A stretch of 64,000 nucleotides of DNA, from assembly GCF_004116625.1 (NCBI RefSeq), contig NZ_NXIE01000005.1:1-64000 (forward strand). Reading direction: 5' to 3'. The position numbers and the translations under genes are program-made. The stretch is from Halarcobacter mediterraneus (lineage in GTDB: Bacteria > Campylobacterota > Campylobacteria > Campylobacterales > Arcobacteraceae). Shown piece by piece: positions 31,712-53,073 of this stretch. How positions within the stretch are numbered: position 1 is the stretch's first letter; each line of letters opens with the position of its first letter. The notes under the pieces are model-generated. The model ran no database searches. It worked only from the letters and a program-made list of their open reading frames with translations, and was not told the origin of the DNA.

Positions 31712-34672
31712 TTGAAATATTTATTTTTATTGTTATTCTTATTTTCTTTTTTATATCCTCAAAAATTAGAAAAAGTAAAGTTACAATTACAATGGAAACA
31801 TCAATTTGAATTTCCAGGTTTTTATGCAGCAAAAGAAAAAGGTTTTTATAAAAAAGCTGGATTTGATGTTGAATTCATAGAATTTGATGAAAATATGAAT
31901 ATTGTAGAAGAAGTGTTATCTGGAAATGCTGATTTTGGATTATCTTTTTCTTCTATTATAATTGATTATATTCAAGGAGATCCAATTATAATGCTTGCTA
32001 ATTTTTTTAAACAGTCTCCTTTAGTTTTGGCAACACAAAAAAATATTAAGCTACCTTCAGATTTAAAAAATAAAAAGATTATGGGACTTTTAGATAGTTC
32101 ACATAAAAGAACAGTTTTAACTATGCTAAATAAATTTGATATAAATATAAATGATTTTATACATTATCCTCGTGAATTTTCTGTAAATGCCTTTGTAGAT
32201 AAAAAAGTAGATGCAATTAGTATTTTTACAACTAATGAAATTTATGAATTAAATAAATTAGGAGTGAAATATAATATATTAGACCCAGCAGTATTTGGTT
32301 CAAAATTTTATGATTTAAACTTATTTACAAAAAAAGATAATGCAGAATATAATAGAAAAAAAGTTAAGGCTTTTAAGGATGCTTCAATAAAAGGATGGAA
32401 GTATGCCTTAGAGAATAAAGAAGAACTAGTTGATATTATTTTACAAAAATATAATACTCAAAATAAAACAAAAGAAGCACTTTTATTTGAGTCAAAACAA
32501 ATAGAAGATTTAATGTTGACAAAAGTTTACTCTATTGGAAGTATAGATTTAAATCAGTTAAATTTTATCGCAGATACTTTTACTCAATCTCAATTAATTG
32601 AAAAACTGCCAAAAAAGAGATTAGAAAAATTTATTTTTGAAGATAATATACAAGCTTTATACTTGACTGATAAACAAAAAGAGTACTTGAATTATAAGAA
32701 AAAGATTAAAATGTGTGTAGATCCTAATTGGATGCCACTTGATGGTATAAAAGAAGGTAAGCATATGGGAATAGCAGCAGATTTTATGAAAAATATCTCT
32801 AATAAAATTAAAATACCTATTAAACTTGTAATCACTGATTCTTGGAAGGAATCTCTTATAAAGGTGAAAAAAAGAGATTGCGATATATTAGCTTTATCTC
32901 AGAAAACACCAAGTAGAACTAAATATTTAAACTTTACAAGCCCATATTTAAAAACACCACTTGTTTTAGCAACAAAAAAAGGAAAATCATTTATTAATGA
33001 TATAAAAAAGATTAATAATAAAAAAATTGCAATTGTTGGAAATTATTCTATGTATGAAATCTTAAAGAATAAATATCCAGATATGAATTTAATTCAGGTT
33101 CAATCTGTAGAAGAAGGATTAAAAAAAGTACAACAAGAAAAATTTTTTGGTTTATTGGATAATTCAATAGTAATAAATAATGAAATACAAAAATACCATT
33201 TAAAAGATATAGCCATTACAGGTCAATTTCAAGAGTCTTTTAATCTAAGTATTGCTTCAAGAAATGATGAAATATTATTAAATGAAATATTAGAAAAAAC
33301 ACTAAATTCTATAGATTCTATAACAAGGGAAAAAATCTTTTATAAATGGAATAATCTTGAATATGATATAACCATTGATTATAATCTAATTGCTCAGATA
33401 CTATTTATCTCAATTGTTATTTTAGCACTTATTTTATATTGGAATTTAAAATTAAAAGAAGAAATAAAAAAAAGGAAAAAAATAGAAAGAGATTTAAAAG
33501 AGAGTGAACAAAAGTTTAAATTACTATTCAATAAGGTACCAATTTTTCTAAATTCCTTTGATTCCGATGGTAAGATTACATTATGGAATGAAGAATGTAG
33601 TAAAGTATTTGGCTGGCAGTTTGATGAATTAAAAAATTATTCAAATCCTTTAGAGTTATTTTATCCTGATAAAGTTTTATTAAATAGAGTAAAAAACTCT
33701 TTTAAAGATTTGGATAGTATTTTGTTTAAAGAGTGGACTCCTCAAACAAAAGAAGGGAAAAAGTTAGTAACTAAATGGGCTAATATCCCTTTGCATAATG
33801 GCGAAGTGATAAATGTAGGATATGATATAACTCAGCAACGAGAATATGAAATAGAATTAAGAAAGAAAAATAGTGAATTAAAAAAAGCACATAATAGATA
33901 TAAAGAGTTAAACAGTGAATTAGAAGATAAAATCAAAGCAGAAATCCAAGAAAATACAAAACATCAAGTAACAATTATGGAACAAAGTAAATTAGCTCAA
34001 ATGGGTGAAATGATAGAAAATATTGCACATCAGTGGAGACAACCTCTTGCTGAAATTAATTCTACTGTTTTGTTATTAGATGCTACATTATCAAATAAAA
34101 AAGTTTTAGATAGCGAAATAGAAGAAAAGCTTTTAGAAATAGAAAACCTGACAAAGTATATGTCTAATACAATAAATGATTTCAAGAATTTTTTTGACCC
34201 AAATAAAGAAAGAGAAGAGTTTAACATATATGAAAATATTCAAAAAACTTTAAAAATATTAAATAGAAGATTGTCCTATTATAAAATTGAAGTTGAAATA
34301 AAAGTTGATAGAAATATTTCTTTAAATGCATATCCAGATGAATTAAATCAGGTTTTATTAGTATTATTAAATAATTCAATTGATGCTTTTAGTGAAAAAA
34401 AAGTGCCATTACCTTTAATAGAAATATTTTTAAGAGATACTAAAAAAGCTTTAATTTTATACATTAAAGATAATGCTTATGGAATTAATAATAAAATAAT
34501 TGATAAAATATTTGAGCCATATTTTACAACAAAACATAAATCACAAGGAACAGGTTTAGGTCTTTATATTTCTAAAATGATTATAGAAAAAGGTTTTAAT
34601 GGACGTATCTCTGTAAAAAATGAAGATGAAGGTGTTTGTTTTATTTTGGAATTACCAAAGGGAGAATCTTAA
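31712..34672 (+). CDS. Sensor histidine kinase with two periplasmic substrate-binding domains
   Basis: A 986-residue sensor kinase. A signal peptide (1-16) precedes an NMT1/THI5-like binding domain starting QLQWKHQFEFPGFYAAKEKGFYKKAG (about 20-300). A second, SBP_bac_3-like domain (about 328-548, KIKMCVDPNWMPLDG) follows. One membrane helix (about 558-578), a PAS domain (595-705), a coiled coil and a kinase core with the H-box AHQWRQPL complete it. The phospho-acceptor is His773, and the ATP-binding DNAYGI and GTGLGLYISK segments are intact. The start is TTG at 31712 with an upstream AAAGG. It overlaps the response regulator by 1 nt. The ligand is unknown. The NMT1 class binds thiamine-precursor, sulfonate or nitrate-like compounds. 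Confidence 0.88.
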   Translation: MKYLFLLLFLFSFLYPQKLEKVKLQLQWKHQFEFPGFYAAKEKGFYKKAGFDVEFIEFDENMNIVEEVLSGNADFGLSFSSIIIDYIQGDPIIMLANFFKQSPLVLATQKNIKLPSDLKNKKIMGLLDSSHKRTVLTMLNKFDININDFIHYPREFSVNAFVDKKVDAISIFTTNEIYELNKLGVKYNILDPAVFGSKFYDLNLFTKKDNAEYNRKKVKAFKDASIKGWKYALENKEELVDIILQKYNTQNKTKEALLFESKQIEDLMLTKVYSIGSIDLNQLNFIADTFTQSQLIEKLPKKRLEKFIFEDNIQALYLTDKQKEYLNYKKKIKMCVDPNWMPLDGIKEGKHMGIAADFMKNISNKIKIPIKLVITDSWKESLIKVKKRDCDILALSQKTPSRTKYLNFTSPYLKTPLVLATKKGKSFINDIKKINNKKIAIVGNYSMYEILKNKYPDMNLIQVQSVEEGLKKVQQEKFFGLLDNSIVINNEIQKYHLKDIAITGQFQESFNLSIASRNDEILLNEILEKTLNSIDSITREKIFYKWNNLEYDITIDYNLIAQILFISIVILALILYWNLKLKEEIKKRKKIERDLKESEQKFKLLFNKVPIFLNSFDSDGKITLWNEECSKVFGWQFDELKNYSNPLELFYPDKVLLNRVKNSFKDLDSILFKEWTPQTKEGKKLVTKWANIPLHNGEVINVGYDITQQREYEIELRKKNSELKKAHNRYKELNSELEDKIKAEIQENTKHQVTIMEQSKLAQMGEMIENIAHQWRQPLAEINSTVLLLDATLSNKKVLDSEIEEKLLEIENLTKYMSNTINDFKNFFDPNKEREEFNIYENIQKTLKILNRRLSYYKIEVEIKVDRNISLNAYPDELNQVLLVLLNNSIDAFSEKKVPLPLIEIFLRDTKKALILYIKDNAYGINNKIIDKIFEPYFTTKHKSQGTGLGLYISKMIIEKGFNGRISVKNEDEGVCFILELPKGES

Positions 34673-35367
34673 TGAGTGAGAGTCAAATATATCCATATAA
34701 GGTCTTATTTGTTGAAGATGAAGAACTTTTAAGAAAAAACTATACAAGTTATTTAAAAATGCTTTTTTCAGAAGTTTATGAGGCAAAAGATGGAGAGGAA
34801 GCTCTTTTTTTATATAAAGAAAAAAAACCTGATATATTGATTGTTGATATTCATATACCAAAGATTAATGGTTTAGAATTATTAGAAATTATTAGAAAAG
34901 AAGATATTAGTACAAAAGCAATAGTTTTTACTGCACACATAAATACAGAATTTTTACTTAAAGCAACTTCCTTAAAACTAGTAAAATACTTAAAAAAACC
35001 AGTAAGTAGAAAAGATTTAAAAAACGCTTTATTCTTAGCTATTAACGAGATATCTAATTATGAAATAGTACCCATTGCAACTATAAATTTAGAGGAAGGA
35101 TATAGTTGGAATGTTCAATTAAAAGAATTGAAGAAATTCAATAAATCTATAGATTTAACAAATAAAGAAAGACTTTTTTTAGATTTATTATTTTCTCATA
35201 GAAATAAAGTATTTTCATATAATGAAATTTTTTATCATGTGTGGGAAGATTATAATGAAGAAGGCAGTTTTAATGGTCTTAAAAACCTTATTCGTCGTTT
35301 AAGAAAGAAATTACCAAAAGATTTAATTCAAAATATTTTTAATGAAGGTTACAAAATAAAAATTTAA
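34672..35367 (+). CDS. OmpR-family response regulator
   Basis: A 231-residue regulator with a receiver domain (acid pair EDEE, phospho-Asp at residue 59 in IVDIHIPK, Lys in KKPVS) and a winged-helix DNA-binding domain (LTNKERLFLDLLF to RRLRKKLPKD). I start at 34672, where ATG overlaps the kinase stop (TAATG) and GGGAG lies upstream. The longer frame from 34636 would duplicate kinase sequence. It is the cognate partner of the preceding kinase by position. An 11-nt-period direct repeat at 35402-35420, just downstream, is a candidate site for it. Confidence 0.92.
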   Translation: MSESQIYPYKVLFVEDEELLRKNYTSYLKMLFSEVYEAKDGEEALFLYKEKKPDILIVDIHIPKINGLELLEIIRKEDISTKAIVFTAHINTEFLLKATSLKLVKYLKKPVSRKDLKNALFLAINEISNYEIVPIATINLEEGYSWNVQLKELKKFNKSIDLTNKERLFLDLLFSHRNKVFSYNEIFYHVWEDYNEEGSFNGLKNLIRRLRKKLPKDLIQNIFNEGYKIKI

Positions 35368-35466: not shown

Positions 35467-38037
35467 ATGAAGAAGTATCATATAATTAGTGTTATTGCAA
35501 GTGGAGTTTTATTATTAGGAACAAGCTTGAATGCACTAAGTTTAGAAGAGAGTGTTAAGGAATCTTTACATACAAATCCAATTGTAAAAGAGAGACTTAA
35601 GAACTTTAGAGAAGTTCAACAAGATTTAAATATTGCAGAATCTGAATGGTATCCATCTTTGGACTATAGAGCAACTTTTGGAAGAAATTCTGCTGGAGAA
35701 CTAAAAGATTATGACGAAGATGACAAGTATAAACATCAAATAGAAGATGAAACTTATAATAATTATACACAATCTTTAAAATTAACTCAAAATATTTTTA
35801 ATGGTTTTAGTACTACAAATAAGATTGACTATCAAAAAGCAAGAATTTTAGCTGCTGCACATCATTATATAGAAAATGCAAATGATGTTGCCTTTCAGAT
35901 GGTGGGTTCTTATTTAGACACAATTAGAACGTATAGACTTTTACAAAATGCTAAAGATAATGTTAAAGTAAATGAAAAAATCTTTGAAGATGTTCAATCT
36001 TTATTTGATACAGGACTTACAACAAAATCAGAAATGACAAAAATACATTCTTCTTTATCTTTGGCTAAATCAAATTTAGTAGTACAACAAAATAATATGA
36101 TAGACAAAGGTTTTAGATTTAAAAGACTTTTAGGAAGAAATGTAAAAGTTTCAGATTTATCTTTACCAAAACTTAATTATGTAATGCCAGAAAGTTTAGA
36201 AAGAGCAACAATATTTGCTATTAATAATAATCCTTCAATACTTGTAAGTAACTATAATATTAAGGGAGCACAAAGTCTTTATAAAGAGAAAAAAAGTAAG
36301 TATTATCCAAAAGTTGATTTAGAAATTGAGCAATTATATAATGATGTAAGTGCTAGAAACAATTATGATAGTCCAGATGATAGAACTAGAGCATACATTA
36401 CATTATCTTGGAATTTATATAAAGGTGGAGCTCATCAAGCAGATATCCAAAAAAGTAGAAGTTCAATTAATAGAGAAGTTGAAATTCAAAGAGATTTAAA
36501 AAGACAAACAATAGAGAGTTTAGAATTATCTTGGTCAGCTTATGAGATGTTAACAGAGCAGTTAAAGGAACTATATAAATATTATGAATATAGTGAAGAA
36601 ACTTTAGCAAGTTATCAAAGTGAATATGAGATGGGAAGAAGAACTTTACTTGACTTACTTTCTGCTCAAAATGATTTAATAAATTCTAAAAATCAAATTA
36701 TTAATGCTGAAACAGACAAGCTTTTTGCACAATATAGAATATTGGATGCAATGGGATTATTAGTTAGTTCAATTTTGGATGAAAATGAATATAGTAATAT
36801 TGTTTACCCAAGTAAAAAGCCTTTTGAAATTGAAGAAGATAGTTTACCTGTAAAATTAGACGTGGATAAAGATGGTGTAGTTGATAGTGTTGATATTTGT
36901 GATAATTCTTTAGTTGGAGATAATATCAAACCAACTGGATGTGTTCAAATTGAAACTGATAGTGATTTTGATGGAGTTCCTAATACTAAAGACTCTTGTC
37001 CAAATACAACTTTAGGGGCATTTGTTGATGAAGAAGGTTGTGCTTTAGAAGATGGAAAGAATAAATTTGAAGCTGAGCAAAGAATTTATTTAGATGAAAT
37101 TCCTAAGTATAATGAACAAAGTCCTAAAAAATCAGAAAAATTAGGTTTATATGATTATGAATTTAATATTGCAGCAAATAAAAATGTTGAATCAACAAAA
37201 CTTGATAAACATTTGATGTATGATAATTTTGAACTAATTAAAAGATTTGATTTTATTAATATGAATAATTTTGATGCAACTAATGAAGCGTATAACAATA
37301 ATATTAAAGATATTGCTAAAAAAATAAACTCTTATGATAGAGATGATATTACAGTAACTGTAATAGGCCATACTCAAAATATGAAGAATAGTGAAGATAG
37401 TTATAATAAAGCCTTAGACTATTCTAAGACAATAACAGAATTACTAATTGAAAATGGTGTAAATAAAGAAAAATTAGTTTCTCAATCAAGAGTAGATTAT
37501 GATAATTTATTTTTAGAAACTGATAAACATGATATTAATAATGTAGTTGCAGTTTCATTGTATATTCCTAAAACTAAAGAAACAGTTGTTTTAGATGATG
37601 ATAAAGATGGTGTAATTAATGAATTAGATAAATGTCCAAATACTGCACCAGGATATACTGTTGATGAAGAAGGTTGTACAAATAAAATTAATCTTGAAGT
37701 ATTATTTGAAAAGGATTCTTCTAAAATAAAAGAAGATACAAAAGAAAAAGTATTAGCATTTGCAAAATTTTTAGTTGATAATAAAGAGTTTAATACTGTA
37801 ATCACTGGACATGCAAGTAAAGAGAGTGAAAAAAGTTCTGCAAAGTATAACAAATATTTATCAGAACAAAGAGCAAACGTAATTAAAACTCTTTTAATTG
37901 CAAATGGAGTTAGTGAATCAAGAGTAAAAGCTCAAGGAAAAGGTTTTGAGGAACCAGTAGCTAATAATAATACAAAAGAAGGAAGAAGTTTAAATAGAAG
38001 AATAGAAGCTGAATTAATAAATATAAATAAACAATAA
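35467..38037 (+). CDS. TolC-type outer membrane channel fused to TSP3 and two OmpA-like domains
   Basis: An 856-residue outer membrane channel protein, probably the LapE role in type I secretion. A signal peptide ends near ALS (about residue 24). A full TolC/OEP domain spans about 26-445. Thrombospondin type 3-like calcium repeats (DKDGVVDSVD at 467, DSDFDGVPNTKDSCPNT, DDDKDGVINELDKCPNT near 710) separate a degenerate OmpA-like domain (587-702) from a canonical one (742-855) with TGHAS and NRRIEAEL. I start at 35467, which has AGGAAG upstream and gives a proper signal peptide; the frame upstream to 35422 adds 15 residues without one. The OmpA part should anchor the exporter to peptidoglycan. 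Usual TolC proteins stop near 450 residues. Confidence 0.9.
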   Translation: MKKYHIISVIASGVLLLGTSLNALSLEESVKESLHTNPIVKERLKNFREVQQDLNIAESEWYPSLDYRATFGRNSAGELKDYDEDDKYKHQIEDETYNNYTQSLKLTQNIFNGFSTTNKIDYQKARILAAAHHYIENANDVAFQMVGSYLDTIRTYRLLQNAKDNVKVNEKIFEDVQSLFDTGLTTKSEMTKIHSSLSLAKSNLVVQQNNMIDKGFRFKRLLGRNVKVSDLSLPKLNYVMPESLERATIFAINNNPSILVSNYNIKGAQSLYKEKKSKYYPKVDLEIEQLYNDVSARNNYDSPDDRTRAYITLSWNLYKGGAHQADIQKSRSSINREVEIQRDLKRQTIESLELSWSAYEMLTEQLKELYKYYEYSEETLASYQSEYEMGRRTLLDLLSAQNDLINSKNQIINAETDKLFAQYRILDAMGLLVSSILDENEYSNIVYPSKKPFEIEEDSLPVKLDVDKDGVVDSVDICDNSLVGDNIKPTGCVQIETDSDFDGVPNTKDSCPNTTLGAFVDEEGCALEDGKNKFEAEQRIYLDEIPKYNEQSPKKSEKLGLYDYEFNIAANKNVESTKLDKHLMYDNFELIKRFDFINMNNFDATNEAYNNNIKDIAKKINSYDRDDITVTVIGHTQNMKNSEDSYNKALDYSKTITELLIENGVNKEKLVSQSRVDYDNLFLETDKHDINNVVAVSLYIPKTKETVVLDDDKDGVINELDKCPNTAPGYTVDEEGCTNKINLEVLFEKDSSKIKEDTKEKVLAFAKFLVDNKEFNTVITGHASKESEKSSAKYNKYLSEQRANVIKTLLIANGVSESRVKAQGKGFEEPVANNNTKEGRSLNRRIEAELININKQ

Positions 38038-38048
38038 GAAGAGATAAC

Positions 38049-40202
38049 TTGATATATCATTCTCCTAAAAAAGATAATTTATTAGAATCTTTAGTTTTAT
38101 ATACAAAATTATTTCATAAACCTTATTCTTCAGATTCTTTAATGTCAGGTTTGCCAGTTGATGCAAACTTGACAGAACAATTATTATTTTCTAAAAATAG
38201 TTCTAGGTCTTTATTTTCAAGAGCTGCATCAAGAGCAGGATTAAAAACTATTTTAATAGAAAGAACACTAAAAGACATTTTACAGTTACAATTACCAGCA
38301 ATAATTTTATTATCAAATAATAATAGTTGTATTTTAGAAAGTTTTTTAGAAAATAAGAAAAAAGCAAAAGTAATTTTTCCTGGGGATGAACCTTTAGAAG
38401 AAGTTGTTGAGCTTGAAGAATTAGAAAAAGAGTATCTAGGTTATGCTTTTATGTTAAAAAAAGCCTTCGAGTATGAAGATTCAAATAACAATAAAACTTT
38501 AGACTTAAAAAATCACAAACATTGGTTTTGGAATACTTTAGGTTTTTCAAAAAAGATTTATTTAGATTGTATTTTGGCTTCTATTTTAATAAATCTTTTT
38601 GTTTTAGCAACGCCATTATTTACAATGAATGTTTATGATAGAGTAATCCCTAATAATGCACAAGAAACTCTACTTGTATTTACTATTGGAATTGTATTAG
38701 TATTTCTTTTAGATGGGGCTTTAAAATTTTTAAGGTCATATTTTTTAGAAATGGCAGGTAAAAAAAGTGATATTATTATGTCTTCTATTATTTTTGAAAA
38801 AGTAATTGATTTAAAAATGCAAGCCCACCCCAAATCAGTAGGTTCATTTGCAAATAACTTAAAAAGTTTTGATAGCATAAGATCTTTTTTAACAAATGCA
38901 ACTTTAAGTGTACTTATTGATTTCCCTTTTTCTATTTTATTTTTATTAGTAATTTTTTATATTGCAGGGATTATGGTTTTTGTGCCACTTTTCATCATCA
39001 TTCTTATTCTTCTTTATGCACTTATTATAAAAAAACCATTACAAAAAAGTATTGAAAGTACTTATGAAGCAAGTGCTAAAAAAAATGGAATATTAGTTGA
39101 ATCTTTACATAATATAGAAACAATAAAAGCACAAGGACTATCAAGTAATGTTCAATATGATTGGGAAGAGTCAACAGGAGAAATAGCAAATAAAAGTTTA
39201 AAGTCAAAACTTATTTCTTCTTCTATTCCAACTGTTACAGGATTATTAATTGGATTGAATACTGTATTAATTATTGTAATTGGAGTATATCAAATTCAAA
39301 ACTTTGAACTCACAATGGGAGGTTTAATAGCTGCAATGATTCTTTCTTCTAGAGCAATTGCACCTATGGGACAAATAGCGGCATTAATTTCAAATTATGA
39401 AGATGCAAAAACTTCTTACAAAATGTTAGATGAAATTGTTAATAAACCTTTAGAAAGACCCCTTGCTAAAGAGTTTGTAAAAAGACCTTCTTTAAAAGGA
39501 GATATAGAATTTAGAAATGTGAGCTTTAAATATCCAGATTCAGAAGCTTATGCTTTAGATAATGTTAGTTTTACAATAAAAGAAGGAGAAAAGGTTGCTT
39601 TTATTGGAAAAATAGGTTCAGGAAAAAGTACAATCACAAAACTTATTTTAAAACTATATGAACCAGACAGTGGTTCTATTTTAATAGATGGAATTGATAT
39701 TTCTCAAATTGACCCAGCAGATTTAAGAAAGAGTGTATCTTATGTTCCTCAAGATATTCATCTTTTTAGGGGAACTATTAAAAATAATATTCTTGGAGCC
39801 TATAGATTTGTTGATGATGAGTGGTTATTAAAATGTTCTAAAACAAGTACAACAGATGATTTTGTAAAACTTCATCCTCTGGGGTATGATATGCAAATAG
39901 GAGAAAGGGGATTAGGACTTTCAGGAGGACAACGTCAAAGTGTAGCAATAGCAAGAGCTTTAATAGGAAATTGTGATACTTATTTATTTGATGAACCAAC
40001 AAATGCTATGGATCAAACAACTGAATCAAAAGTATTAAAAAATTTAAAAGAAGATATTGAAAACAAAACTTTAATTTTAATAACACAAAAAATGAATATG
40101 CTTGATTTAACTTCAAGAATTATTGTTATGAATCATGGTAAAAAAGTTTTAGATGGAAATAAAAAAGAAATTCTTCAAAAATTAGGAACAGTAAATGGCT
40201 AA
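38049..40202 (+). CDS. lapB: Type I secretion ABC exporter, LapB type
   Basis: A 717-residue exporter. An N-terminal C39 peptidase-like domain (about 1-140) lacks the catalytic Cys, as in the non-cleaving RTX/LapB class. Six membrane helices (about 165-430) follow, then the nucleotide-binding domain with Walker A GKIGSGKST, LSGGQRQ, Walker B YLFDEPT and the switch region ITQKM, where a His is usual. It energises secretion of the adhesin. The start is TTG at 38049; the first ATG would remove much of the peptidase-like domain. The last 8 nt overlap the next gene. Confidence 0.92.
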   Translation: MIYHSPKKDNLLESLVLYTKLFHKPYSSDSLMSGLPVDANLTEQLLFSKNSSRSLFSRAASRAGLKTILIERTLKDILQLQLPAIILLSNNNSCILESFLENKKKAKVIFPGDEPLEEVVELEELEKEYLGYAFMLKKAFEYEDSNNNKTLDLKNHKHWFWNTLGFSKKIYLDCILASILINLFVLATPLFTMNVYDRVIPNNAQETLLVFTIGIVLVFLLDGALKFLRSYFLEMAGKKSDIIMSSIIFEKVIDLKMQAHPKSVGSFANNLKSFDSIRSFLTNATLSVLIDFPFSILFLLVIFYIAGIMVFVPLFIIILILLYALIIKKPLQKSIESTYEASAKKNGILVESLHNIETIKAQGLSSNVQYDWEESTGEIANKSLKSKLISSSIPTVTGLLIGLNTVLIIVIGVYQIQNFELTMGGLIAAMILSSRAIAPMGQIAALISNYEDAKTSYKMLDEIVNKPLERPLAKEFVKRPSLKGDIEFRNVSFKYPDSEAYALDNVSFTIKEGEKVAFIGKIGSGKSTITKLILKLYEPDSGSILIDGIDISQIDPADLRKSVSYVPQDIHLFRGTIKNNILGAYRFVDDEWLLKCSKTSTTDDFVKLHPLGYDMQIGERGLGLSGGQRQSVAIARALIGNCDTYLFDEPTNAMDQTTESKVLKNLKEDIENKTLILITQKMNMLDLTSRIIVMNHGKKVLDGNKKEILQKLGTVNG

Positions 40203-41574
40203 TTTAAAAGAAATAAAAGAAGCTTTTTTTAACAAAAATACTCCTAAGATAAATAAAAATTTAACTAAACATGATTATGAATATATGAAAAGTTTAAGTT
40301 CAGCTGTAATTTATAATCGACCTAAAAAGTTACATTGGGTTCTTATATCTTTTGTTATAACTATTTTTTCTTTTATTATTTGGGCATCATTTGCACAAAT
40401 AGATGAAATAGCAAGAGGTCATGGGAAGGTTGTTCCTAGTGGACAAAATCAAATTATACAAAATCTAGAAGGTGGAATAGTTTCTGAAATTTTGGTAAGA
40501 GAGGGAGATTTTGTAGAAAAAGACCAAATTCTATTACGAATTAGTAATGAAAAATCTTCTTCAACTTTAATATCAAATGAAATAAAAACACAATACTTAA
40601 AAGCACAAATAAAAAGACTTGAAGCTCAATTAAAAGAAGAACCTTTTGAATATCAAGAAAGTGAAAATAAAACTTTAAATGATTTTTTTAAAAATGAAAA
40701 AGAGTTATATCTAAGTAATATGAATCAAATAGATTCTAAAGTTCAAATTTTAAAAGAACAAAATAAACAAAAACAAAGTGAGCTAAAAGATGTACGACAA
40801 ACAATTAAACATTTAAAGTTTTCTGTTGATGCAATTGAAAAAGAAGTTAAAATGACCGAACCTATGGTAAAAAGAGGGATTCGTTCAGAAGTAGATTTCT
40901 TAAAACTACAAAGAGAAGAGAGTGAAGCTAAACAAAAACTTCAAAGTGCAATTCTTTCTGTTAATCGAATAAAATCAGAAACAAGTGAAATAGAAAAAAA
41001 GATAAAGGAAACTCTTGAAGTTTTTAAATCTCAAACCCAAGAAAAGTTAAATGAAGCTGTAACTTCATTAAAAGATTTAGAAGCAAATGCAGTAGCTTCT
41101 CTTGATCAAGTATCAAGAACTATTGTAAAGTCTCCCTCAAATGGAATTGTTCAAACTCTTCATATAAATACTATTGGGGGATCAATTAAACCTGCACAAG
41201 ATTTAATAGAGATTGTACCTACTGATTATAATTTAATTGTTGAGGTGAAAATTCTACCTTCAGATATTGCATTTATATATCAAGGGCAAAAAGCAATAGT
41301 GAAGTTTTCAGCTTATGATTTTTCTATTTATGGAGGATTAGAAGGGGAGGTTATAAATATTTCACCTGATACAATCACAGAAAAAGATGATAAAACTTAT
41401 TATTTAGTAAGAATCAAAACAGAAAAAAACTATATTGGAACAGAAGAAAAACAAATGAAGATTATTCCTGGAATGGTAGCTGATGTTGATATTATCACTG
41501 GCAAAAAAACCATTTTAGATTATATTTTAAAACCAATATTAAAAACCAAGCAATATACCTTTACGGAGAGATAA
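40195..41574 (+). CDS. lapC: Type I secretion membrane-fusion protein, LapC/HlyD type
   Basis: A 459-residue periplasmic adaptor linking the ABC exporter to the TolC channel. It has one membrane helix (about 50-70), a lipoyl-type half-motif (GHGKVVPSGQNQIIQNLEGGIVSEILVREGD near 82-112), a long coiled coil (about 140-300), the second lipoyl half (VKSPSNGIVQTL) and a beta-barrel domain. The C-terminus carries the PGMVADVDIITGKKTILDY signature of HlyD. It overlaps lapB by 8 nt and the following regulator by 1 nt. Confidence 0.93.
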   Translation: MANLKEIKEAFFNKNTPKINKNLTKHDYEYMKSLSSAVIYNRPKKLHWVLISFVITIFSFIIWASFAQIDEIARGHGKVVPSGQNQIIQNLEGGIVSEILVREGDFVEKDQILLRISNEKSSSTLISNEIKTQYLKAQIKRLEAQLKEEPFEYQESENKTLNDFFKNEKELYLSNMNQIDSKVQILKEQNKQKQSELKDVRQTIKHLKFSVDAIEKEVKMTEPMVKRGIRSEVDFLKLQREESEAKQKLQSAILSVNRIKSETSEIEKKIKETLEVFKSQTQEKLNEAVTSLKDLEANAVASLDQVSRTIVKSPSNGIVQTLHINTIGGSIKPAQDLIEIVPTDYNLIVEVKILPSDIAFIYQGQKAIVKFSAYDFSIYGGLEGEVINISPDTITEKDDKTYYLVRIKTEKNYIGTEEKQMKIIPGMVADVDIITGKKTILDYILKPILKTKQYTFTER

Positions 41575-42173
41575 TGAAAATAGTAGTTTATAGTAGTGAT
41601 ATTGCACTAATTGTTAGATGGGAAAAGTTGTTAAAAGATTATGAACTTAGTATTCTGACAGAAGAAAAAGAACTCTTTTTAGTAAAAGACTCTTTGCTAA
41701 TAATAAATTCAGAATTAAATTCTAAAAATTTAAACTATATCATAGAGTCTATGATAAAAAATAAAAATAAAATACTTATTTTAGATAGAACACCCGAATA
41801 TAAACAAGCACAGAGTTGGCTTTCTAAAGGTGTGAATGGCTATGGAAATTCTCTAATGAGTTCTTCTTTTCTAATTTCAGCAGTAGAAGCGATTTCTAAT
41901 GATTATATCTGGTTGCCTCCTCATATTACAACTGAGTTTTTAAAAAATATGACAATTAATAAAAATAAGAAAAATTTAGAGGAAGAATTATTTTCAGGCT
42001 TGACAAATGCTGAAAAAAAAGTAGCAACTCTTTTAAAAAATGGTTATACAAATATAAATATAAGTGAAGAGCTTAATATTTCAATAAATACTGTGAAAAC
42101 ACATATCAAACATATTTATGAAAAACTTAAAGTAAAGGATAGATTATCCTTTGCTTCTTTATTTACAAATTAA
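41574..42173 (+). CDS. LuxR-type regulator with degenerate receiver domain
   Basis: A 199-residue protein. The first 120 residues have a receiver-like alternation of strands and helices, but the acid pair and phospho-Asp are missing (VKDSLLIINSELNS where the Asp would be). The C-terminus is a canonical LuxR helix-turn-helix: LTNAEKKVATLLKNGYTNINISEELNISINTVKTHIKHIYEKL. Phosphorylation-independent control is therefore likely. It sits between the adaptor and the adhesin, so it probably controls the adhesin or its own operon. CsgD-like regulators have a similar design, but I cannot claim orthology. Confidence 0.88.
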   Translation: MKIVVYSSDIALIVRWEKLLKDYELSILTEEKELFLVKDSLLIINSELNSKNLNYIIESMIKNKNKILILDRTPEYKQAQSWLSKGVNGYGNSLMSSSFLISAVEAISNDYIWLPPHITTEFLKNMTINKNKKNLEEELFSGLTNAEKKVATLLKNGYTNINISEELNISINTVKTHIKHIYEKLKVKDRLSFASLFTN

Positions 42174-42272: not shown

Positions 42273-50519
<8,247 letters not shown>

Positions 50520-50575: not shown

Positions 50576-51178
50576 ATGAAAGTTTTTATACTCATTTTAT
50601 TTTTTGTATTTTCTATTTCTCAAGCGGATTTTAATTCTACAGATCTAATAAAGAAAGTAGAAAAAAAATATAATAGATTTGCAAAAAATAGGTTTATTGC
50701 TTTAAATAGAACAATAAAAAGAGCATCAAAAAAAAATGAGTTAAAAAAATTAGAAATGATAAATGACTTTTTTAATTCTGTTCCTTATGGTGATGATAAA
50801 GATATTTATGGAGTAAGTGATTATTGGGCTACACCTTATGAATTTTTAGGAAAAGATAAAGGTGATTGTGAAGATTATGTTATAGCTAAATATTTTGTAT
50901 TAAAGTATTTAGGTGTTTCTACCAAAAAGATGTTTTTATCTTATGTTAGATTAGAAGGTTCAAATGAAGCTCATATGGTTCTTTCCTATTTTGAAACACC
51001 TACTTCAGAGCCTTTGATTTTAGATAGTATTAGAAAAAGAATTTTTAAAGCTTCAAAAAGAAAAGATTTAAAACCAATATACAATTTCAATCCAAATATT
51101 TTAAAAAATGGTAAAAAAACAGCTGCCCATAGAAAATGGGATAAATTATTAAAAAACTTTAGGGAGAATAAAATATGA
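50576..51178 (+). CDS. lapG: LapG-type periplasmic cysteine protease (BTLCP family)
   Basis: A 200-residue transglutaminase-like protease with a signal peptide (MKVFILILFFVFSISQA). The catalytic triad is visible: Cys98 in KGDCEDY, His133 in EAHMVL and Asp150 in LDSIRK. LapG homologues cleave the retention module of a LapA-class adhesin to release it, and are held inactive by LapD. Its place just after the adhesin and overlapping the LapD-like gene by 4 nt (ATGA) supports that role. Confidence 0.93.
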   Translation: MKVFILILFFVFSISQADFNSTDLIKKVEKKYNRFAKNRFIALNRTIKRASKKNELKKLEMINDFFNSVPYGDDKDIYGVSDYWATPYEFLGKDKGDCEDYVIAKYFVLKYLGVSTKKMFLSYVRLEGSNEAHMVLSYFETPTSEPLILDSIRKRIFKASKRKDLKPIYNFNPNILKNGKKTAAHRKWDKLLKNFRENKI

Positions 51179-53073
51179 GTCTATTTAAACAAATTTCAAT
51201 TTTACTATCAATTGTTTTTACAATATTATTTATATTAATAGCAAGTATAAGTTTTAATGAGATAAAAGACTCTGCTCAAAAGTCATTATATCAAAATGTT
51301 CAAAATAGTGTATCAAATATAAGTTTATCCATAACAAATGCACAAGCTGATATTAGTACAATTAAAACTGTATTAAATGCAAGTTTTGACAATGGTAATT
51401 ATGAAAAAATAATATTTAAAGATTTAGATAATAATATAGTACATCAAAGAGGAAAAAAAGAAGAATCCCTTGAAAAAAAGTTTCCTCTATGGTTTTTAAA
51501 TTTTGTAAATATTGATGAAGTTTCTGCTTCTTCGACAATCTCACAAGGTTGGACAGTATTAGGTACACTTGAAGTTTTTGCTGATAGAGATATTTTTTAT
51601 AATCAAATTTATGCAATTTTCATAAATCTAATTATTACTTTAGTTATAACTTTTATTGTATTTTTATTTGTTCTTTCTTTACTTTTTAAATCTATTTTAA
51701 AACCTTTAAGTATTATAAAAGAGCAAAGTGACTCTATTATGCAAAATAAGTTTATCTTTCAAAAAAAGATACCTTTTACTTTAGAGTTCAAATCTGTAAC
51801 AATAAGTATAAATAGTATGGTTGAAAAAATTCAAAATATGTTTAATCATGCAAATGAGATATTGAAAAAGAACAAAGAGTTATTGTATGTAGATGAATTA
51901 ACAAAGCTATATAATAGAAGATATTTAATATTAAAAACAAGTGAATATTTAGAAGAAAATAGCATAAATCATTTAGGTTACATAATCTCAATAGTTTTAA
52001 CAAGAATTGATTTATTAAATAAAAAAGTAGGATATAAAAAAGCTGATAAACTATTTATAGAAATGGCAAATATTATGAAAGAATTAACATTAGTTAATGA
52101 ATCTAATATCATATCTAGAACTAATGCTGCTGAATTTATAATTATTCTGCCAAGGACCAAAGAAAATGATGCAAAAAATATTGCAAAACAATTATCTATA
52201 AGCTTGAATAAAATATTAAAAAATATAAAAGATGAAGATATAAAACTTTATATGGGGCTTTGTACTTTTGAAGGTGAAAGAAATCATAGTGATTTACTTA
52301 GTAAAATAGATTATACTCTTTCTCAATCAAAGATTTTACAAGATAAAGATTATTTTTATATGAAAAATGATGATGTTTATGAGACAAGAGACAATTGGAG
52401 AGAATTAATAAATACAGCATTAAAAGAAAATGATTATTTTAATATTTTATATAGAGATGTTCTTGATATTGATTCTAAAGAGATTGTTTATAAAACAATT
52501 AGTTTTGAAATCAAAACAAAAAATAAGACATATTCATATGGTGAATTTATAGCTTCGGTAATTGAATTAAATTTATTAGAAGAAGTATACTTAAATATTA
52601 TTTCAAAAGTGTTAAATATTCATAGATATAATAAGAAAATATCAATTCAAATACCTAGTAATTTTATTGAAAATATATCTTTTGAAAAATTAAGAAATAT
52701 TTTTGATAAAAATAATAGTTTTAAAAATATCATTTTTGAATTAGAAGAAGACTCTTTTGTAAAGTATTATTATAACTCTTTAGCTTTTATAAATATTATT
52801 GAAGAATATGGTTTTGATATTGCTATTTTTAATTTTATGGGAATAAGTGATGATTATAATTATTTAAAATCAAAAAAAATAGAATATATAAAAGTAAATC
52901 AAAAGTTTTTAGAAACAGTAGAAAATCTAGATGCTTTAAATATGGTTAAGATGTCTTTAGGTATAAAATTAATTGCAACATCAATTAATACTAAAGAAGA
53001 ATTAAATGCTTTAAAAAACAAAGATATAAAATTAATTGCAGGGAAGATTACAGAAGGAATACTTTACAAGTAA
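51175..53073 (+). CDS. lapD: LapD-type c-di-GMP receptor with degenerate GGDEF and EAL domains
   Basis: A 632-residue inner membrane receptor. Helix 1 (about 8-28), a periplasmic LapD_MoxY-like domain (30-145, with the W in GWTVLGTLEVFADRD), helix 2 (about 148-172), HAMP, then GGDEF and EAL domains. The GGDEF site reads RTNAAEF (315-321), and the EAL start reads SFEIK (443-447), so neither cyclase nor phosphodiesterase activity is expected. The known role is to bind c-di-GMP and sequester LapG. The start overlaps the lapG stop. It overlaps the convergent regulator gene by 10 nt. Confidence 0.92.
   Translation: MSLFKQISILLSIVFTILFILIASISFNEIKDSAQKSLYQNVQNSVSNISLSITNAQADISTIKTVLNASFDNGNYEKIIFKDLDNNIVHQRGKKEESLEKKFPLWFLNFVNIDEVSASSTISQGWTVLGTLEVFADRDIFYNQIYAIFINLIITLVITFIVFLFVLSLLFKSILKPLSIIKEQSDSIMQNKFIFQKKIPFTLEFKSVTISINSMVEKIQNMFNHANEILKKNKELLYVDELTKLYNRRYLILKTSEYLEENSINHLGYIISIVLTRIDLLNKKVGYKKADKLFIEMANIMKELTLVNESNIISRTNAAEFIIILPRTKENDAKNIAKQLSISLNKILKNIKDEDIKLYMGLCTFEGERNHSDLLSKIDYTLSQSKILQDKDYFYMKNDDVYETRDNWRELINTALKENDYFNILYRDVLDIDSKEIVYKTISFEIKTKNKTYSYGEFIASVIELNLLEEVYLNIISKVLNIHRYNKKISIQIPSNFIENISFEKLRNIFDKNNSFKNIIFELEEDSFVKYYYNSLAFINIIEEYGFDIAIFNFMGISDDYNYLKSKKIEYIKVNQKFLETVENLDALNMVKMSLGIKLIATSINTKEELNALKNKDIKLIAGKITEGILYK

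Follow-up and report, generated by a model that had tools for sequence, protein, structure and literature searches.

Here we report the analysis of a fused TolC-type channel protein of Halarcobacter mediterraneus (Campylobacterota: Arcobacteraceae), which is encoded in the first 64,000 nucleotides of contig NZ_NXIE01000005.1 (assembly GCF_004116625.1; this whole stretch is referred to as the window). The protein of 856 amino acids (aa) is specified by a single open frame on the + strand that runs from an ATG at position 35467 to a stop at 38037; it contains no internal stops, and the motif AGGAAG stands 6 bases upstream of the start codon. It consists, in this order, of a signal peptide, a type I secretion system (T1SS) TolC domain, TSP3 repeats, a degenerate OmpA domain, further TSP3 sequence and a second OmpA domain. 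The original prediction, which was made from the sequence of the window without database searches, had proposed exactly such a fusion at 35467-38037; coordinates and domain order were confirmed with Pfam, NCBIfam and AlphaFold, and no frameshift divides the frame into two proteins.

The Pfam search of the fused protein returned two OEP stretches (1.2e-50), two OmpA domains (1.5e-25) and two TSP_3 regions (1e-7). A probable signal peptide, judged by eye, occupies aa 1-23 (35467-35535) and ends in SLNA, followed by LSL. The TolC channel domain (aa 24-435; 35536-36771) was recognised by PF02321 and by the T1SS TolC model of NCBIfam, TIGR01844 (237.0 bits over aa 23-433, curated cut-off 225.15), which places it in this family, and the first half of the AlphaFold model matched Escherichia coli TolC (1ek9; Foldseek, 3e-19). 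It is followed by a TSP3 block (36859-37044; PF02412) with DxDxDG motifs at aa 465 and 498 and cysteines at 478, 492, 511 and 525, and by a linker (aa 527-560; 37045-37146) that leads to the fusion junction and was modelled mostly with low confidence. The first OmpA copy (37204-37566; Pfam and profile comparison) and the second (37702-37998; PF00691) enclose another TSP3 unit (37594-37680; Pfam) with DDDKDG at aa 710 and cysteines at 723 and 737. The full-length AlphaFold model was of middling quality (predicted local distance difference test, pLDDT, 75; predicted template modelling score 0.48; 26 rows), with pLDDT below 50 at aa 535-584, and a model of the C-terminal part reached a pLDDT of 83.5.

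Both OmpA copies were also searched on their own. Against a PF00691 cut-off of 27.2 bits, copy 2 (37582-38034) passed clearly with 70.6 bits (1.5e-19) and copy 1 (37129-37581) narrowly with 30.9 bits (3.6e-7). The alignments of the two copies matched each other in a profile-profile comparison (probability 98.9, E 3e-17), and the copy-1 profile matched solved YiaD/OmpA domains with values no better than 1e-6. In the C-terminal model, copy 1 forms the order strand-helix-strand-helix-strand-strand; a short helix is added in the full-length model. The modelled copy 2 matched solved OmpA/Pal domains with Z of 14-18 among the 50 matches listed, so that domain search and structure agree on the OmpA fold that had been assigned to aa 742-855. 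The best matches to the C-terminal model include 3td5, an OmpA domain solved with a diaminopimelic acid (DAP) peptide bound. In the DAP-binding motif TD(x)7NxxLSxxRA the Asp, Asn and Arg are critical (PMC5104382; this and all other articles are cited from excerpts of their text). Copy 1 of the window protein has Gln at the Asp site and Tyr at the Arg site, and its description as degenerate holds. The view that the second copy is canonical did not hold, since it retains Asn and Arg but has Ser at the Asp site. The second OmpA domain is thus non-canonical and neither domain has the full DAP set; the DAP-binding Asp plus Arg expected of a peptidoglycan-binding OmpA_C domain is found in neither copy.

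The full fusion was present in 13 of 100 genomes, including that of H. mediterraneus, and 36 of the 100 contained a match at 1e-30. The 12 other fused proteins have intact frames, are 847-916 aa long and share 55-80% identity with the window protein. A fused channel with 67% identity is encoded on the complete plasmid pACLO of Arcobacter cloacae, in a cluster whose genes, from sensor kinase to LapD, are ordered as in the window and which adjoins an integrase gene. A scan for named loci identified 124 that encode a relative, of which the best 80 (81 with the window) were analysed; some of these loci come from genomes that are also in the set of 100, and the first TSP3 block formed part of the query alignment, which biases the scan towards TolC proteins with such extensions. 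In a quick TolC tree, the 12 named fused loci and the window formed one clade (Shimodaira-Hasegawa-like approximate likelihood ratio test, SH-aLRT, 100), with the split loci L061 and L064 as its sister (SH-aLRT 99). Fused and split forms can coexist, because L061 and the fused locus L041 share the UBA4036 genome.

A separate gene directly 3' of tolC encodes the OmpA pair in L061, L064 and many Sulfurimonas loci, and its product has its own N-terminal hydrophobic stretch. The mature N-terminus of this separate protein, with the sequence G-x-YD, aligns from about aa 560 of the fused protein, and the fused chain therefore corresponds to a TolC-TSP3 protein plus the mature partner. An OmpA domain lies on TolC or in a gene at most 1.3 kb away in 76 of the 81 loci. 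The loci were grouped into class A (TolC with two OmpA domains; n = 17, comprising the 13 of the fused clade and L069, L071, L111 and L112), class B (TolC with one OmpA plus a separate downstream gene; n = 20), class C (TolC without OmpA plus a separate downstream gene; n = 12), class D (TolC with one OmpA plus a separate upstream gene; n = 11), class E (TolC without OmpA and no separate gene; n = 5) and class F (TolC with one OmpA only; n = 16). A copy-1 gene lies alongside tolC in L065 (class E), at a contig end, and L062 (class F) also has one. Five Sulfurovum-type loci (L086, L097, L099, L101, L106) encode after tolC a secreted-looking protein of 189-199 aa that represents copy 1 alone. 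Seven isolates have two TolC exporter loci, one with and one without copy 1 (L048/L084, L050/L082, L052/L089, L049/L092, L079/L098, L065/L077 and L066/L105).

Two-OmpA TolC proteins also occur outside the fused clade on the Campylobacterales TolC tree, where this state requires at least three changes, a count that does not distinguish gain from loss. In a tree of the OmpA domains, the copy-2 domains of the fused clade were monophyletic (support 100/99), and these 13 domains grouped with the TolC-attached OmpA of class B (93/85 and 83/77); their placement with the split sister loci instead was not rejected by the approximately unbiased test (p-AU 0.219).

The genes around the channel, from sensor kinase to LapD-type receptor, lie on one strand (+) with short spacing. 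Upstream are a sensor kinase with NMT1 (NMT1/THI5) and solute-binding domains (31712-34672; Pfam), similar to kinases found upstream in several fused loci as well as in Sulfurimonas loci, and a response regulator (34636-35367; Pfam). Downstream follow a T1SS ABC transporter of the LssB/LapB type (38049-40202; TIGR03375, 858 bits, cut-off 693), an adaptor of the HlyD/LapC type (40195-41574; TIGR01843, 392.9 bits, cut-off 208.65), a LuxR-type regulator (41574-42173; GerE) and a repeat adhesin of 2748 aa (42273-50519), whose N-terminus (42273-42554) is retention-module-like according to its family profile. The cluster continues with a LapG-type protease (50576-51178; PF06035, 52.7 bits against 27), in which Cys98, His133 and Asp150 form the likely triad as judged by eye, and ends with a LapD-type receptor (51175-53073; PF16448, 92.4 bits against 25) with GGDEF and EAL domains (Pfam) whose signature motifs appear degenerate by eye. 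The protease scored 161 bits with NF045674, under its cut-off of 320, and the receptor 230 bits with its equivalog model, under the cut-off of 1020. Two features of a Lap-type cluster are thus present, namely a protease of the LapG type and a receptor of the LapD type with LapD_MoxY_N.

The family profile of the adhesin N-terminus gave a weak match in the Protein Data Bank (PDB) to 5ix9, 'Antifreeze protein' (4.6e-4; next match 0.029, among the 10 matches listed), which we take to be the N-terminal domain of a Marinomonas ice-binding adhesin. Neither Pfam nor NCBIfam names a retention module on the N-terminus of the window adhesin, and the N-termini of three gammaproteobacterial adhesins gave no clear match to its family. 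The pattern [TPA]AA[GAS], which we take to be the LapG cleavage pattern, is missing from aa 61-260 of the window adhesin, which presumably may use another site; the cluster is therefore called Lap-like and not a Lap member. Among eight adhesins of the fused clade (window, L036-L041 and L047), some of which end at contig borders, only that of L041 has the pattern after the retention-module region, and six have LRDAxF at aa 110; several Sulfurimonas adhesins have [TPA]AA[GAS] at aa 119-153. The LapG site may differ in the adhesins of the fused clade. A long EP repeat linker occupies aa 250-297 of the window adhesin, C-terminal of the retention-module region.

The fusion is not only conserved but also linked to exporters of adhesins with a retention-module-like N-terminus, an association that the original prediction had proposed to survey. 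The adhesin N-terminus (E 1e-4) was found in 28 of the 100 genomes, namely in 12 of the 13 with the fused channel versus 16 of the 87 others, and a strong full-length LapD (E <1e-20) in 20, namely in 12/13 versus 8/87. The corresponding Fisher p values of 3e-7 and 1e-9 are overstated because the genomes are related. The fused genome that lacks both is a draft of about 220 contigs (G035). Within the own genus, both features occur in 5/5 genomes with the fusion and in 0/11 without it (Fisher p 2e-4, likewise overstated). In 8 of the 12 fused genomes with a strong LapD, this gene and the fused one share a contig and are no more than 21 kb apart; the distance exceeds 100 kb in two (G025, G041), and in two others it is on another contig (G011, G057). 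A strong copy-1 match (E <1e-20) occurs in 18 genomes, and 16 of these have the adhesin N-terminus versus 12 of the 82 without copy 1. A survey of flanks, which counts only loci with more than 1.5 kb past hlyD, located the adhesin N-terminus in 10/11 loci of class B, 7/7 of C, 6/10 of A, 1/3 of E, 0/9 of D and 1/12 of F; many class D, E and F loci have a convergent adhesin-like gene whose N-terminus lies beyond the surveyed flank. Genome-wide searches for six additional loci (L071, L062, L057, L042, L043, L044) added four matches.

These results suggest a reading to which we assign an evenly balanced probability: the fused protein would serve as the outer-membrane channel (the LapE role) of a Lap-like exporter of a giant adhesin, into which a periplasmic OmpA-family partner, encoded separately in many relatives, has been fused, and its arms would hold the channel. 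The C-terminus of TolC is on the periplasmic side. The partner would have been joined to the channel at its own mature N-terminus, and a trimer, which is the state of TolC channels (PMC8277102), would then extend three C-terminal arms into the periplasm next to the tunnel, and each arm would carry two OmpA folds with TSP3 spacers. Most likely, such arms would hold the loaded channel in position within the envelope for as long as it is plugged by the adhesin. Copy 2 might touch peptidoglycan through a variant pocket with Ser in place of Asp and with Arg and Asn retained, and copy 1 might be a protein-contact or structural domain. Judged from the sequences, anchoring to the wall by the OmpA arm is plausible. 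The natural fusion of both in one chain also implicates the channel as partner of separate OmpA components such as SO4321 of Shewanella, by a Rosetta-stone argument and not as a binding result.

Several observations weigh against this reading. The Asp site of copy 2 is Ser in all 13 proteins of the fused clade (12 named loci and the window), and copy 1 lacks both Asp and Arg in all 13, where the Asp position is occupied by Gln, Lys, Arg, Pro or Glu and the Arg position by Tyr or Phe. Elsewhere the TolC-attached OmpA often has the Asp (7/10 in class D, 6/14 in class F and 6/7 in the other class A domains; this survey of DAP sites by class excluded L001-L035). The genome of H. mediterraneus has five other PF00691 genes, with Asp, Asp, Asp, Ala and Ser at this position; since two of the five have Ser or Ala, residues other than Asp are not confined to exporters. 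A second type of LapD-like match, weaker and about 745 aa long, with PF16448 in two pieces, is present in every one of the 16 genomes of the genus, and a genome-wide search detected the adhesin N-terminus in 20 of 30 genomes that contain TolC loci of other types (class D in 11, F in 14, E in 3 and otherwise fused in 2; L100 of class E and L103 of class F, which have it within the locus, were excluded). The fusion is therefore not required for such adhesins, and co-occurrence reflects inheritance of the gene cluster as well as function. Seven of these 20 genomes also contain a copy-1 locus; copy 1 as an absolute mark of retention-module systems was rejected on the same count of 20/30. The LapD-like kind of about 745 aa often lies near a gene of the LapG type and occurs both in genomes that have the fused channel and in genomes that lack it.

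In class B, the TolC-attached OmpA has the Asp in 5/20 and the separate OmpA in 17/18. This contrast is less marked in the other classes; the separate OmpA has the Asp in 11/11 of class D and 5/7 of class C, where the two exceptions are the split sisters L061 and L064, both with Ser. Ser at the Asp site was also considered as a mark of exporters and set aside: among plasmid records it was present in 6/7 exporter-linked versus 1/7 unlinked genes (Fisher p 0.029), which is a hint only in a hand-chosen comparison (4/20 rows of one match list, with the fused Arcobacter gene as a fifth, and 10/40 of another) in which 6/7 linked genes are from Vibrionaceae and one, L129, is unannotated, with its tolC deduced from a joined match only.

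Among the alternatives, it is possible, if doubtful, that the OmpA folds have lost their binding to the wall and act as a scaffold on the channel that docks the periplasmic retention module, LapG or the HlyD adaptor. The loss of both DAP residues from copy 1 and of the Asp from copy 2 would fit such a role, as would the five Sulfurovum-type loci with copy 1 alone, four of which have the adhesin N-terminus in the locus, and the frequency of this N-terminus in genomes with a strong copy 1. This association is one-sided, however, as such adhesins also occur without copy 1, and Asn and Arg are retained in copy 2 in 13/13 proteins of the fused clade, which drift would not retain; a conserved Ser combined with these residues looks like constraint and not decay. 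An unlikely variant is that the pocket of the arm was retuned, by the exchange of Asp for Ser and the alteration of copy 1, for a ligand other than DAP, such as the retention module or LapG, and that the arm would act as a latch or sensor on the plugged channel. Still less probable is a conventional wall anchor, as the original prediction had it, in which a canonical second OmpA domain binds DAP and fixes the exporter: copy 2 has the fold as well as Arg and Asn, and the DAP-bound 3td5 is among its best matches, but the Ser in all 13 proteins argues against it, as does the precedent of the Treponema OmpA-like protein Tp0624, in which a natural change from Asp to Ala is accompanied by a lack of DAP binding (PMC5104382). 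A chance or assembly fusion by read-through, frameshift or a chimaeric contig, for which no support was found although many records are drafts, is hardly conceivable because 13 of 100 genomes have the fusion, in intact frames of similar length and sequence and also on the complete plasmid of A. cloacae.

With the channel and the OmpA pair in one chain, the unexplained helper protein of such systems is tied to the channel. Lap/Bpf-type loci with an OmpA-family gene next to tolC were encountered in two phyla, and one of these genes has a role in biofilm formation; the natural fusion and the other TolC-OmpA fusions of Campylobacterales suggest that the OmpA partner works on the channel itself. 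The fused protein offers a single chain for examining wall binding and adhesin retention, and the consistent absence of the DAP-binding Asp cautions against annotating a peptidoglycan anchor from the family name alone.

Comparison with known systems upholds the statement that other T1SS adhesin loci encode OmpA in a gene of its own, namely at SO4321, on Vibrionaceae plasmids, in Marinomonas and in many Sulfurimonas. To our knowledge, LapE itself has no OmpA arm. In the Lap system, the adhesin is anchored in a TolC-like channel until it is cleaved by LapG (PMC6890996). The window shares with the Lap system of Pseudomonas fluorescens (LapA, LapBC/LapE, LapG, LapD) the giant adhesin, the dedicated T1SS, the LapG-type protease and the LapD-type receptor, but its adhesin, unlike the Lap pattern, is without [TPA]AA[GAS]. 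No TolC-OmpA fusion was found in the titles and abstract beginnings of open-licence PMC literature on TolC-OmpA or Lap loci, and 'OmpA' is absent from the available text of PMC8277102 (first 300,000 characters), PMC13090378, PMC12153261 and PMC6890996. In the bpf locus of Shewanella, the OmpA-like SO4321 lies between aggABC and bpfG and has a role in biofilm formation by a mechanism that is not known (PMC4523816); compared by description, it is a separate gene and is not fused to AggA.

SiiA of Salmonella SPI-4 is likewise a peptidoglycan-binding accessory of a giant-adhesin T1SS and requires arginines 162 and 167 for binding, but unlike the fused arm it is an inner-membrane proton-channel subunit (PMC12607715). 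The YbjP-TolC complexes (9tg4 and 9v52, known here from their PDB titles) also have an accessory on the TolC channel, which is, however, a separate lipoprotein. Among the Foldseek matches listed, the best match to the C-terminal half was the periplasmic part of Capnocytophaga gingivalis OmpA (5wtl), an OmpA protein and not a secretion channel, in which TSP3 presumably also precedes OmpA. In Marinomonas, one gene separates tolC and ompA, and the copy-1 profile had no match in the four gammaproteobacterial OmpA proteins tested, that of Marinomonas included. Some Vibrionaceae plasmids have genes annotated as transglutaminase-like cysteine peptidase and EAL protein, which we interpret as LapG and LapD, beside or near tolC-ompA; in V. 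harveyi and V. crassostreae, tolC-ompA stands without these genes in the stretch examined. In the Lap-like loci of these plasmids (Salinivibrio, V. fluvialis, V. harveyi, V. crassostreae), ompA follows directly after tolC and encodes a separate protein of about 200 aa, and in the Vibrionaceae ompA genes that adjoin tolC (L118, L119, L120, L128, L129, L131) the DAP-binding Asp is replaced by Ser, as it is in the fused protein.

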